Below are positions 228 through 7,633 of a stretch of 64,000 bases of DNA, one piece after another. Position numbers and translations under genes: made by a program. Under the pieces are notes generated by a model, which was not told where the DNA came from, did not search any database, and saw nothing but the letters and a program-made list of their open reading frames with translations. This stretch comes from Glutinoglossum americanum (lineage: Eukaryota > Ascomycota > Geoglossomycetes > Geoglossales > Geoglossaceae). The stretch spans positions 1 to 64,000 of the forward strand of contig JAGHQL010000125.1 in the NCBI GenBank assembly GCA_020080175.1, in the 5' to 3' direction. The stretch's first letter is position 1, and each line of letters opens with the position of its first letter.

Positions 228-339
228 GTTACCTCAGATACCTAGGCCCGCACATCCTATTGGATGGTCGCTTCGCTTACTTAAGCCGGATGTGGGAGGG
301 CCTGGGCAAAACTTTGGCGGTTTATGTGCAAGCAGCACT
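228..339 (+). repeat. Left terminal inverted repeat of the helicase-DUF6589 element
   Basis: The outer core spans 228-280, from GTTACCTCAGAT to CTTCGCTTAC, and contains CCTATTGGATGGTCGC. A second conserved block lies at 322-339. It pairs in inverted orientation with 5727-5810. It also matches a solo copy at 46827-46881, which shares the CCTATTGGAYGGTCGC and TTCGCTTACT blocks but lacks about ten bases in the middle. Confidence 0.65.
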
Positions 340-1087
340 AACTTACGTGTAAAACACACGAGTCGCTGCAATAACTCGCATGATGACCGCCAATGTGGAT
401 ACCCCGACGACCCCCTGGCCGGATTGATTAAAGTTAATGTGTAAGCGTATCTAGAGTTGTGGCACCATAATATGCGCTAATTTGTAGAGCGGTTTTTGAT
501 GTAGTTATCATGTAATTACGCGTTCCTTTCCTAATCGAACACGAGCGACAACGACACCTCCTCGTACAACCGTGAACCACAACCCCAAAACAGATAAAAC
601 CACATGTAGATGATAGAGGAATCCAAGGCGGTTACCGAAGAACTTGGTCGGTTTAATTTGGTGACGATCTCGTCGAGAAACAACGTAATACTCTCGTGAA
701 CGTAGGCCGGACCACCCCCCACCCCGTCCGATAGCAACCTAGCCGTATTGCCAATATCACGACAGGTACCGAAGCCACTACCGGAGGCCGAGTCGATCTT
801 CCAAGCACTTCTGTAGCTCAGTCGTGGCTTAAATAGCCTGTTGGACGGCGGTGACAGTATAACGTGACCGCGGCGCAGTGGTTCCGAGACTTCCCTTTGC
901 TAAAGCTCCTCCCCTTCCATTTGGGCCCGAATGGGAGGTGGATACATGCCAATATTCATTGCGGGCTCGAGTTCGACTCCAGTAGTGGTCATTTTTTTTT
1001 TTTTAGCAGAAGCCGGCAAGGTAAGCTAGGCACAGCAGGGCCGGGTTGAACATACCCATACCGCCGCCAGAGACAGGAGACGTCTAA

Positions 1088-3054
1088 ATACCAGGACGAG
1101 GTCTTTTTGAACGTCTGGCAGACACGGAGGGCGAAGAAGTAGTAGGGGCAGAGGGCGGAGAAGTAGTAGGAGGCGAAGGAGTAGTGGAGTGCGAAAAAAT
1201 AGCTCTGCTCCAACGGTTGCGGCAGCTATATGAGTATGAGCCTCGCCAAGAGCAGGTAGAGGCAATATATACCCTCGTTTATAAGCGTCGAGACCTTATC
1301 CTTAGTGCTCGAACCGGATGGGGGAAGAGTATGATTTTTCAGTCAGTTCCGGTCTTTCGGAATGGAGGCATTTGCCTCATGATCATGCCGCTTAATGCCC
1401 TTGAGGAGGATCAGGCTCGATCGATTGATCAGCTACCATGCTGCAGGTCCTGCGTATTGAACGGCGAGAGTAACAGCCCAGCTCTGCGTCAGCGTATTCA
1501 GAATGGCGAATTCACCCATGTTCTAACTAGTCCAGAAATTGTACTCGGCAAGAACTTCCTAACGGTCCTACAAGACTCTGAGTTCCAAGACCGGTTAGTT
1601 CTGGTTGCGATTGATGAACTACACGTAGTTGCTCAATGGGGGACGGTATGGCGGAAGGAATACTCACAATTACGTGAACTCCGTAGCAGGGTCGGGAGAG
1701 GCATACCTTGGTTCGGAACATCGGCAACACTAGATCCTGTGATGCTGGAAAGTGTCAAAAAGTTAGCTGGATTTGATAACCCTATGGAGATGCATACATC
1801 GTTGGATCGTTCGGACATTTTTCATAAACGTCCAGTGCCTTCAGTTTCCAGCAAACAGTCACAAAGACCTTCGTTTCCTAATACCCTCGCCTTCACCAAT
1901 TAGTCCATTGCCGAAGACCATCGTGTATGTGGAACGGATAGCAGAGCTGGTCATGGTAGTGCAGCATCTCCGGAGATGGTTGGTAGAGGCGGGCTATTCT
2001 AAAGAGCAATCAACCGTGCTCATTCGACCGTATCACGGCGAACTAGCAGAAAAAGACAAATGCCTTACCTTTACTGAATTTATTAAGCCCGACTCTGCAT
2101 GTCGAATCGTTGTAGCCACAGATGCTATGGGGATGGGCGTCAACAACCCCGATGTTCTTCGAGTCGTCCAATGGAAGCAACCGGATAGTATGTGCAGTTT
2201 ACTGCAACGAGCCGGCAGGGCTGCGAGAAAATTGGGTATCTATGACGAATTCATTTGGTTAGTAGAATCTTGGTGCTAATGGGCCACGGTTAGAGGACTT
2301 GATACGTACAAAGGCCAACAGTTTGAGACTTTCAAGCCAGCTTTCACAGTCATGGATAGAGGGTGAAATAGCATCTGGAACAGGCAACGATTCGGCGTCA
2401 GGTTCTGAAACGCCTGGAAAGGGTCGAAAGGATCCGGCAGAAAGGCGATCCAACTTACCGCGAGGCCTTTGGAAGGTAATTAACGACAGAAACAGCTGCA
2501 TTCGTCATAATATATTAGCCTTCTTCAGCACAGCCCCGCCGGAGGAAGGGGAGACTTACCCTAATGGCTGTTGTTCGAATTGCCATCCAGAACGTAATTC
2601 GATACCAAAGCGTTCTAGCTCTCCGTCCCCAAAAGTTAGTAGGATAAATGGAGGAAACTGGACTCCTGGATATAGACAGAAAGCCGTTGAAAAAGCTCTA
2701 ATGGAGTGGCGAGATCGTACAGTTCCTGCACGATTTGCATCGACGGTAGTTAGTAGAATGGAGGGGGTAGCACAATTCTTTTTGGACGATAAGACTATAA
2801 GAGAATGGTCAAAAGTCGCAGCAGGTATTAGGCATATGGACGACTTTCGGAGCATTGCTAGGGGCTGGCCGTGGGCTAAGGAGCATGAAGATGAACTTGT
2901 CGATCTAATTCGACGTACAGTCCGGTCAACGGTCAATCCTAGGCAGATTCAGCCAACACCAACAAAAAGAGGAAAGGGAAGGACTAGGCAACCCCTATCG
3001 GCCATACATTCCAATACCCAAACACCGGCTACTACAACTAGTATCCATAAGTAG
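1088..3054 (+). pseudogene. RecQ-like superfamily 2 DNA helicase, frame-broken, element-borne
   Basis: Three overlapping frames carry one helicase in order. The first (1088-1903, no ATG, first GTG at 1184) has the P-loop variant SARTGWGKS and a DELH box (DEAH-like motif II), followed by SATL (motif III). The second (to 2279) has the helicase C-terminal half, with VVATDAMGMGVNNPDV and LLQRAGRAAR (motifs V and VI). The third (2299-3054) adds a Cys-rich patch (GCCSNCHPE) and a basic, proline-rich tail. Frame changes fall near 1850 and near 2275, between segments that align co-linearly with the family; no splice sites explain them. The N-terminus is open upstream to a stop at 1085, so the start is missing or lies in an unseen exon. 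RecQ-type enzymes unwind DNA 3'-5'. The stop at 3052-3054 lies seven bases from the end of the convergent DUF6589 gene. Confidence 0.75.
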
Positions 3055-3061
3055 AAGTGTT

Positions 3062-5602
3062 TCAAGGGAGGTCAAAAACACTAACCGTATCTTCATTAAA
3101 TTGATAAAAGCTATCAATAGGCTCTTCTGTATCCGCCTCCTCTTCTGCTATGGTAGCTAGGTCACTCGCGCTACTTTCTCGAACATTAAACCTTCGAATA
3201 GCCTCTGATAATCGGGTTACACCTCGAGTGTTGAGATCTGAGGCTTCGTTGGCAGTACTTCGGCCTGGATGGAACTTCATAGAGTATTTTTGTAGTTCCG
3301 CCGCAAGCGTAACAATGTCATACTGTGAAGACTTGGTTGAATGCTTTGAATCGACATGAACACCAAAAATGTGTTCGACGTGACGCTGTAGATCCTTAAG
3401 GAATGACGAGTTCAATGAACAGTACTCAAACAAGTAATCCAGGGTAATAGAAGAGGTGTGCCGAGTCCTGAGAATATCTTTCATCTTACCATTGCGTAAC
3501 TCCACTAACCGATCGGTTTCAAACCAGCTGTTAGGTTGACCTCGAAGATTGATTAGGCTATTGGCCAATATTGCCCGCTGAAGAGGCTTCGTTGTCGCTG
3601 GTGTTGATATCAAACGTTTGAAGTACAGCATTTCGTATGCGTATTTATGCTGTTTCGAGCCATGAAAGTATATGCAACAGCAATCTATTGCATGTGTGAA
3701 ATAAGGCCGATATCCGCATGCTTAATAGCATGCTTTAGTAACAAGTAGGTTTCGGCATGCTGAAGGAATAGTATGTGGTTCCGAAGCTCATGGTCAGTGC
3801 ATTGGTAAGATGGAGTATCAATAAGCTTAAGGCGGAGGAAGTCAATCAAGATATGTAGAGATTTTGGGTCTTGCTGGCGGATTTGATTCTCTATGCTTTC
3901 TTGATTGTCCCCTTCTACTTCTAACCCAAGTTAGTACGCCGAACAAGCTGTCGCTGTACGGAGGGAACAACCTAGCTTATTGCACCTAAAATGCCTCCAC
4001 AACGCTGCTACAAATCGAGCTTGATAGTTATGAATAACAAACTCTTCCAAGGCGAAAAAGTCAGCCTTTGCGGGTCGAACTTTCCGGCGGTTCCAGAACT
4101 CTTTGCTGTGACGTAGGCTAGACTGGTCGATTACACCGTCCTCCGTTCTGTAGTGAGCTGTAATTATCATCTTTAAGTAGTTCATCTTCAAATGGAATAA
4201 AGCCGGAATAGGGAGAAGCCATTTGAAGCTATCGTATCGTGATATGGCATCCTCTCGACGCTTTTTGATTGTACGAAGACGCTGGACAGTCTTCTGGTCA
4301 CCATATATTAGAAAGAGCCGCTCTGCAAAAGCGTCGTCCTCTAGCCGATACTGCTGTTGAAAGATATTTCGCAATACATTGATTGATGTTGCCGGCATTA
4401 CTGCTCTCGTCGAATGGAATTGGCCCAAGAGAATTATGTACCGACTGTCTCTGCCCAGATAATGAAAGGACTTCAACCTGAGGCATCTGAGGACGAGGAA
4501 TGCCACAACCAGTATATACTGAGCGGATGGCATCAGGAAATGCTGTAGCGATTGACTCAAAAATGAGAAAATTAGATATCTGTATGTATTTATAAGTTAG
4601 TCATTGACTGCCGTTTAAGAAGAAGATTACCTCAGTCTGTATACCTCCCGTCAAGTTACCAGGAGCAAAAACAAGATCTGGAATCGATAGCTCCACTTCA
4701 GAGTCAATCATATCCTGATGTAAGCCGCCGTGAGGAATATCACGTCCTTGAATGACCTCGCCAGTAGTAACAGAGTTAAACTCGCTATTATCACCGATTC
4801 GCTGCTCTTTTACGCCCATCGTCTGCTCGAAGTTGTCATATGCAGTTATTGAATCCTCCGCAGAACCTGCATGAGCAATATCCTCTTTTGCCTTCTCTGA
4901 TATAGCCTTGACGGTAGTGTTGACGGCTGGATAACTGATACTAACTCCCAGGTGATTCATTAGCTCAATCAATCGTCGTCTAGCCCCATGAGAATGTAAG
5001 TGTAGGCCTAATAATGTAGGTAGATTGTTGCAGTTCTCGCGATGCCGAGAGAAGCGTATTATGGCTAGCACCATGATATATCGACTGACTGGTTCTGCTC
5101 GGCTGCTGCTAGAGGGTCCCATAAGCGCTCGAAGGAAGGAAAGGAGGCGTGGAGCATGTTGCTCGATAATGTCAAGAACAGCTGTCATATCGAGGTCAAA
5201 AAACGAGGTGACTTGGTTCAGTTTCCATTTGCCAAAATAAGACGTAGAAGCTAGCAATTCGACCTCCTTTGTTAGCTGCGTAGCGCCTCGATTTAAACGG
5301 TCCAGTACGTCGTCTTTATTGTAACTGATTAACGTATCTAACACCACCTTATTCTCATGGAGGCGACGTATGAAAAGAGACTTCGCTCGTTTTTCCGACT
5401 TCACCAATGATTCTACAAGGTCATATATGGTCCATCGGTCCCCTTTCAGTAGGAGGAGGTATTTATCCAGCTTCTGGCTATTCGTTTGACGTCGTCGACG
5501 TCGAGACCGCTGCGGGGTATGTACGGGTACATGTTCGGTGGCAGAGCATGCAGAAGGACTCGATACTATTATTTCTGACAGCTCAGATGAAGAGTCTTCC
5601 AT
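3062..5602 (-). pseudogene. DUF6589 protein, frame-broken, element-borne
   Basis: The ATG is at 5602. The first segment (5602-4631) is 324 codons with an Arg-rich stretch near residue 36 and the family's YDNFEQTMGVKEQR followed by VTTGEVIQG. An intron follows, with donor at 4630 and a TGACTAAC branch site. The next segment has IYGDQKTVQRL and WLLPIPALFHLKMNYL, then (to 3062) FHGSKQHKYAYEML, NLRGQPNSWFETDRLVE and the C-terminal helices, all in the family's order. The frame changes near 4380, where TCAA is tandemly duplicated, and again near 3700, so this copy is not functional. DUF6589 is a fungal domain of unknown function. Its convergent pairing with a helicase between inverted repeats suggests it is the element's transposase or a partner of it; that is inference. 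I am fairly sure of the family from motif memory. Confidence 0.7.
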
Positions 5603-5726
5603 ATTGATAAGGTAGGAATTGTAGTTCTAACAATATATGCGTATTTCTGATAGCTAAAGAATTCTTGAAGCCCAAGATGAGGTTATCGCGGGCGGGACTA
5701 CAATATACGCTGAGTCATATTTATAG

Positions 5727-5810
5727 TACTGCTGCTTCCACATATATCACCTCTACAGCCGCCATTATGTAAGCGAACAAAGGCTGTTCGGGCCTGGGCA
5801 TCTGAGGCAA
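5727..5810 (-). repeat. Right terminal inverted repeat of the helicase-DUF6589 element
   Basis: Read on the minus strand from 5810 inward, the order is TTGCCTCAGATGCCCAGG, CCCGAACAGCCT, then TTCGCTTAC ending at 5769, then a GTGGAAGCAGCA block at 5731-5743. The inner CCTATTGGATGGTCGC segment present in the left copy is mostly missing here, so the two ends have diverged by small deletions. It lies about 320 bp upstream of the next host-type gene. Confidence 0.6.
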
Positions 5811-6129
5811 TCACGGCAGTCAACCTCACGGATGCATGCGAGATAAACTCGTAAGACTGGTTTTCGTGCAAAAAGAAGGCTCCGTCTCATAGCACAGGCG
5901 CTCAGGCGCATTGAGCTTGTCGATATTCTCAAGCGATTGCTGAGGAAACAGAAAGAAGTTTTCTTGAGGAAATTCATGCCAGCTGGTTGGATGCGGGGAC
6001 CCGCTCTGTTGCACTGGGCTTCTATTTCGCCTTGTAAGATCACTTCTTTACCTCATCTTATGGACTCCTTGCCTCTCCTTACTGCACGCTACCAAGAGTC
6101 ACGTCGCTGCTCAGACTCGAGTTGTTCCG
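5811..6129. other. Intergenic spacer between the element's right end and the next gene
   Basis: About 320 bp. No gene is recognisable. It must contain the promoter of the plus-strand gene at 6130; I see no clear TATA or CAAT arrangement. Confidence 0.4.
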
Positions 6130-7633
6130 ATGGCAGCAGGGCTCGGCGAAGCAGCGGGTATCGCTGGTATTATCAGTCTTACTGGGCAAACCGTGAAGGC
6201 AACGTCTGCGCTTTATATCTTTTGTAAGTCCTACAAGGACGTAAACTCCGAAATCGCAAAAACGAACCAGGATCTCAAAGATTTACGAGATGTCCTCTAT
6301 CAATGCCGGCGTTTAGCTACAGGCATGGCGGATGGTGCTGCGCCTACAGATACAGTTGACCTCCTAACACAGCAGATCACAAGATGTCAAGCCGATGTGA
6401 AAGACTGGAACCAGAAGTTCGCGTCGTTAGGCTTAGAAGAGTCTAAAGGCGCGGCTAGGTTCTTGAAAAGACTGAGAGTTGCCGCGGATAGAAGCTACTT
6501 TTCGCGAATCATGGATCGCATCAGCTCTCACAAAGAGCAAATTGCTCTGTCACTTGGAGTTTTAGAGACGTAAGCACTCCTAACGAAACCTGATTCCTGA
6601 AATGGCTACTGACAGTCTTTTCTCAAGCGAAGCCGGACTATGTAGCGTGCGTCATTCAAAGGCCGCGAAAGCCGCCACCGATGCCTTACAAGTTAGCCAA
6701 AACAGTCTGCAAAACGGAACATTTCAGCGGCTTGACGCCGTCGCCAAAGACGTCTCTAAGTTACGGTCCGAACAGTCCACATCATCTGGCGTTTTGCACG
6801 ACAAACTCGAAGATATGGAATACTTGAACAGCACCAGAAATGGAACCACTCAGATGCATCTTACAGCTATCGATGCCCGATTGAAGTCAATACAAAAGCA
6901 GCTTCAGAAGTCTGTGCTCCAGGCGAGAGCGGGTGCAGAACAGCCTTATGCAAGATGTATGAGAAAGACTCCACCGAAGAGATTATTTTCAAGTCGAGCT
7001 CGCAGATTGGAATTCGCAGGCTTGGGTTCTAGTCTGACGAAAAAACCCTTGAGACATCTTGGCCTGACGCCACTACGCCTCGTAAAGCCCGGTATCTTAC
7101 TTCATGAGAAGAACGGGCAGTTGATGTCGGAACTACTTGCGCTCGACGACGAAGCGTATGCGAAGGCGGATAGAGCCCAGAAGATTGCTCTGATTGAATA
7201 TGTTGGAGGCCTACGGCTAGTCGTTTGGCTGCTTCAAAAGCAAAATTATCTGTCCTCAGTCGGAGTCGGCCTTGGAAGAAACGTGCAGTCTAATCTAACA
7301 TTAGCCGCATCGTTAACTTCACTCTGGGAGTCTAGAACGATAAGAGAAATCGCTCAAGCCGCTGTCGGAGACTCCCCTAAGCTGGCCCCAGAACTCATCC
7401 AAAACCATAGGTTCAATATGCACTTGATCTGTTCGAGGGTCATGTTGCTGGTGGAATATTCCAATATACGACTAACCTCGTTGGAAATACGGGCACTGGT
7501 GAATTATTTTCAATATGTGACCGTCTCGTTGCGGATCTTTGGCGCTGATATAAATATATGGTTAACGATCAAAGATTGGGACAATTATGGAATAGCAAGA
7601 AACATAGTGTCGACGATTCTAACATATCCGTGA
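6130..7633 (+). CDS. Stand-alone NLR-type N-terminal helical domain protein
   Basis: Two exons, 6130-6569 and 6616-7633, joined by a 46-bp GT-AG intron (GTAAGC, a CTAAC branch site, GACAG) that keeps frame, give 485 residues. The N-terminus (about residues 1-145: Gly-rich, hydrophobic start, then KTNQDLKDLRDVLYQCR) looks like the helical domain that heads many fungal NACHT proteins (PigL_N/SesA-like class). The middle is a probable coiled coil (about 160-260), followed by a helical C-terminus with WLLQKQNYLSSVG. There is no P-loop, NACHT or repeat domain. In the family this domain acts as effector or adaptor in self/non-self recognition. Here it could be a solo adaptor or the remnant of a longer gene. 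It lies 320 bp beyond the transposon end and close to three NACHT genes. Family assignment is moderate; the gene model is good. Confidence 0.6.

Follow-up and report, generated by a model that had tools for sequence, protein, structure and literature searches.

We find that positions 229-5810 of a 64,000-base stretch of DNA from the earth-tongue fungus Glutinoglossum americanum (class Geoglossomycetes) are likely to be the decayed remains of a cut-and-paste DNA transposon that carries two genes, occurs at low copy number, and has TTRCCTCAGATNCCCAGG ends. It most likely belongs to the AcademH lineage and would use a DUF6589 protein as its DDE transposase. This stretch, hereafter the window, comprises bases 1-64,000 of contig C30 (80,473 bases). 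The element is mobile: its ends also delimit two copies with internal deletions, each at a site of its own, one of them with a 9-bp direct repeat. The copy in the window is a remnant, because both its genes, for a RecQ-type helicase and for DUF6589, are interrupted. Its features are listed in Table 1.

Table 1. Features of the element, in window coordinates
Feature	Position	Strand	Basis or remark
Left terminal inverted repeat	229..339	+	Starts TTACCTCAGATACC; alignment to right end, motif recurs at other sites
Subterminal palindrome in left end	241..306	+	Arms 241-257 and 288-306
RecQ-type superfamily II helicase gene, broken	1200..3054	+	Conserved reading from near 1200; start codon not established
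Helicase ARTGWGKS	1307..1330	+	Position from translation
Helicase AIDELH	1607..1624	+	Position from translation
Helicase QRAGRAAR	2205..2228	+	Position from translation
DUF6589 (PF20231) gene, probable DDE transposase, broken	3062..5602	-	Profile matches and translation
Candidate catalytic Glu codon	3500..3502	-	DRLVE; E672 of P0007
Candidate second catalytic Asp codon	4297..4299	-	YGDQKT; D429 of P0007
Probable intron in DUF6589 gene	4580..4630	-	GT..AG borders
Candidate first catalytic Asp codon	4835..4837	-	YDNF; D277 of P0007
Right terminal inverted repeat	5727..5810	-	Starts TTGCCTCAGATGCC; alignment to left end

Inverted ends and internally deleted copies

The ends of the element are inverted copies of each other, well above chance, as the initial annotation had claimed. 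Local alignment of 229-339 to the reverse complement of 5727-5810 gave a score of 32.5, which was reached by 0/2000 dinucleotide shuffles (maximum 19.0) and by 0/3000 random pairs of equal spacing elsewhere in the window (maximum 18), while the two ends aligned in direct orientation scored only 12. In BLAST, left and right ends shared 45/63 identities (11 gap columns) plus 20/25. We searched the genome (25.8 Mb in 317 contigs) for copies and ends, and found the longer motif TTRCCTCAGATNCCCAGGCCCG at 10 sites with at most 3 mismatches, compared to 0 for a reversed control. Four of these sites are both ends of the window copy and both ends of one deleted copy, on contig C64. Near 5749/5750, the right end of the window copy has lost 18 bp that are still present in the C64 copy.

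The two deleted copies lie at C64:51198-51888 (691 bp) and C134:14089-14790 (702 bp). Both match the left end of the window element for ~460 bp inward; the match to the right end extends over ~120 bp in the C64 copy and consists of two shorter pieces in the C134 copy, and neither copy has a match to the helicase or DUF6589 gene. The copies lie in different flanks but are 71% alike along almost all of their length, and so represent separate insertions of a single derivative with an internal deletion. The C134 copy is flanked by CTCTTTTAC and CTCTTTTGC, a 9-bp direct repeat (8/9 alike) exactly at the TTR...YAA borders. Such agreement between two random 9-mers has a chance of ~1/10,000, uncorrected for the number of copies (three) and the various lengths and offsets compared. 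No such repeat flanks the window and C64 copies, so that it is present at just one of the three two-ended copies. When joined flanks were searched for empty sites, no uninterrupted copy of either site was found. The C134 copy has 26% G+C and its flanks 26% and 32%; repeat-induced point mutation may account for this low value, or the region may simply be rich in A+T. These findings uphold the proposal that this is a DNA transposon whose ends belong to it.

Several further observations concern the ends and the deleted copies. A solo right end of 63 bp (C283:72889-72951) is 100% identical to window 5750-5812 and breaks off at most one base from the point where the window copy misses its 18-bp stretch; further solo ends lie at C10:82698, C21:3740, and C250:138157-138314. 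The left flank of the C64 copy is part of another dispersed repeat, the similarity stopping at or before the insertion point. Up to ~90 bp of this bordering repeat are found at C5:36422-36512, C124:168591-168676, C179:52388-52478, C269:111570-111647, and C254:113520-113564, and it ends near TTGCCGCTT in the copies read. About 50 bp from the interior of the deleted copy recur at C281:70331, C302:105144, C1:388641, and C64:37055 (86-91% identity). The short block CCTCAGATRCC was discarded as an end marker for want of specificity, with 29 genome occurrences versus 21 for its reversed control. When six ends were folded as DNA, the only strong hairpins were those of the C64 left end (z = -5.0) and C10 (z = -3.7), the left and other ends of the window copy giving -1.8 and 0.1 and the remaining two -1.3 and -0.6. 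With strong values in just 2/6 folded ends, we dropped a mechanistic role for terminal hairpins.

Two convergent genes and their probable pairing elsewhere

Within these ends lie two convergent genes, as initially annotated: the helicase stop codon ends at 3054 and that of DUF6589 starts at 3062, which leaves seven bases between them. The earlier two-gene description needs correcting in that neither gene is a single open frame. The helicase reading frame shifts near 1823 and near 2277, while the DUF6589 gene is interrupted by frame shifts (near 4400 and near 3697) and by a stop codon in frame at 3931-3933; some interruptions of both genes may fall in unrecognised introns. Profile matches to DEAD (3.1e-14) and Helicase_C (1.6e-13) were obtained on + strand pieces of the helicase gene, in which we take ARTGWGKS, AIDELH, and QRAGRAAR to be the Walker A motif, motif II, and motif VI, respectively. 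The solved structures nearest to a helicase homologue are RecQ, RECQ5, and WRN (37 rows with E up to 1e-10), and the RecQ zinc-binding profile stayed under its cut-off in 5/5 helicase homologues scanned. Helitrons combine a Rep/HUH nuclease with a PIF1-type helicase, and we ruled them out given the RecQ type of the DEAD/Helicase_C match and the lack of a Rep domain in seven element pieces scanned.

How often the two genes occur together was judged from contig sizes. Six of 78 helicase matches share the exact size of their longest contig with one of 98 DUF6589 matches, compared to a mean of 0.62 and a maximum of 5 in a control with 120 shifted lengths. Five of the six are short contigs (4851, 4878, 5132, 5515, and 6184), and the sixth is a 3.2-Mb contig of Fusarium solani. 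Proteins of Geoglossum umbratile, Sclerophora amabilis, and Ilyonectria are among the DUF6589 matches. In 5/5 short cases the helicase and DUF6589 matches have at least one source label in common, and these five contigs probably carry both genes. The two locus tags from Fusarium solani differ by 22, so the genes are not adjacent there. Within the host genome we found the two genes together nowhere else: the remaining two DUF6589 loci, C16 (L049:4560-6086, where the frame ends early) and C260 (L050:1043-1339), have no helicase match anywhere on their contigs and no convincing terminal repeats. A search for further loci with both genes, as the initial annotation had suggested, thus came out negative in the host and probably positive for five short contigs elsewhere.

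Three of these results weigh against a transposon made of this pair of genes: 1) a search with the whole element found no second full copy in the genome, 2) the pairing elsewhere is indirect, being judged from identical contig sizes, and 3) single ends stand alone on C283, C10, C21, and C250 and are thus partly dispersed repeats. All three would be expected if unrelated helicase and DUF6589 genes had come to lie as chance neighbours between small dispersed repeats, and we raised our estimate for that reading because the contig-size contrast is weaker on the full rows. We nevertheless hold it to be very unlikely, since the two ends are inverted matches of each other and delimit two deleted copies that align with both sides of the window element. 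The concern that the ends might be mere dispersed repeats is borne out in so far as single ends do occur alone.

DUF6589 as the probable transposase

The DUF6589 profile matches three - strand pieces of the gene (9.5e-21, 1.2e-6, and 2.2e-29), and acidic D/D/E candidates of the DDE-transposase type are conserved in DUF6589. An AlphaFold2 model of one DUF6589 homologue has a predicted RNase H-like core, and its 13 best Foldseek rows are the Hermes (hAT) and P-element transposases, none with E < 0.001. Because the core of the model is RNase H-like and its best structural matches are transposases, DUF6589 is probably the transposase of the element. The earlier suggestion that it supplies the strand-transfer or nuclease activity is thus supported by a homologue, which has conserved acidic residues and a predicted fold like those of DDE transposases. 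PDB sequence searches with P0007 and the profile A1 returned no match up to E 10, so that the link to this fold comes solely from the model. Among the 15 Pfam families listed at E up to 10 for 34 DUF6589 members, DUF6589 alone matches all of them, and none of the 15 is a transposase model. A scan of viral contigs for relatives gave 61 pattern matches, 0 confirmed. No paper naming DUF6589 was found in the literature searched, papers beyond that set not being covered, and in this literature its link to transposases is unwritten under that name.

Relationship to known transposon classes

The element has terminal inverted repeats, as do AcademH elements, and AcademH belongs to a DDE transposase superfamily, as predicted for DUF6589. 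These helicase-encoding Academ transposons were reportedly described by Kojima in 2020 (Mobile DNA 11:15). The initial view that such a pair was undescribed as one element is not supported: AcademH has been in print since 2020, and RecQ-encoding Kolobok lineages are described in PMC9587614. The literature searched gave no paper on a RecQ helicase transposon in Glutinoglossum. The element and AcademH share a helicase beside the transposase (in the window; in its relatives the helicase is RecQ-type). PMC10045372 (Kojima and Bao, 2023) gives target duplications of 9 or 10 bp for AcademH and of 3 or 4 bp for AcademX, a difference related to the encoded helicase and nuclease; our element has its 9-bp repeat, 8/9 alike, at one of three two-ended copies. 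Low copy number in an ascomycete is a common trait, AcademH being low-copy in Basidiomycota, Ascomycota, and Mucoromycota according to a 2024 fungal survey (PMC10799480). Judged by published description and not by sequence, the element probably belongs to AcademH, which of AcademH and KolobokH fits it best.

The best structural matches invite a different reading, in which the element represents a separate, unnamed superfamily whose DUF6589 DDE transposase has a fold nearest to hAT and P, is unrelated to Academ, and acquired a RecQ helicase independently. The Hermes and P transposases resemble the DUF6589 model in a predicted catalytic-core fold with helical insertion, whereas identity is 8-12% and there is no sequence family match. 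hAT and P elements make 8-bp target duplications and, to our knowledge, carry no helicase; no 8-bp duplication was seen at the three two-ended copies, where the sole repeat is the 9-bp one. That no sequence link to Academ is shown agrees with a separate superfamily. A best match to hAT or P is nevertheless compatible with Academ, and we know of no Academ structure in the PDB. Published accounts of AcademH agree with the helicase, with the single 9-bp duplication, and with a low copy number in an ascomycete host. We think a separate superfamily rather unlikely. We are similarly doubtful of its fuller form, in which DUF6589 would found its own DDE superfamily nearest to hAT and P, work with a RecQ helicase, and recognise ends in which a short palindrome lies immediately internal to the terminus.

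KolobokH, in which a Kolobok transposon carries a RecQ helicase, is also very unlikely. The target duplication of Kolobok is TTAA, which was seen at 0/3 two-ended copies. According to PMC9587614, KolobokH is restricted to fungi and carries the RecQ helicase downstream of the transposase domain, so that both it and our element combine a DDE transposase and a RecQ helicase in a fungal host. The same source gives a C/DxxH motif between the second Asp and the last Glu. This motif is absent from DUF6589, where the position three residues ahead of the conserved His is A (31) or G (3) in 34/34 members.

For an AcademH-like element, the DUF6589 DDE transposase would bind and cut the ends and would insert them at staggered target cuts 9 bp apart, generating a 9-bp target duplication, while the RecQ-type helicase would unwind DNA as the element is excised, as its ends are processed, or as gaps are repaired. 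The points that keep their interest are the assignment of DUF6589 as a transposase and the chance that it forms its own superfamily. A Pfam family without assigned function here receives a proposed one and is linked to a transposon that has defined ends and encodes a helicase, which would let fungal DUF6589 genes be annotated as transposon genes. Were DUF6589 its own superfamily, many fungal genes of 'unknown function' would be its transposases. With two proteins and two ends, the element offers a simple system in which to study what certain cut-and-paste transposons need a helicase for.

Neighbouring reading frames

A frame with a PigL_N match (8.6e-8) and a weak SesA match adjoins the element at window 5968-6570. 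Beside the DUF6589 gene on C16 lies a frame, L049:6277-7077, that by eye only is similar in kind.
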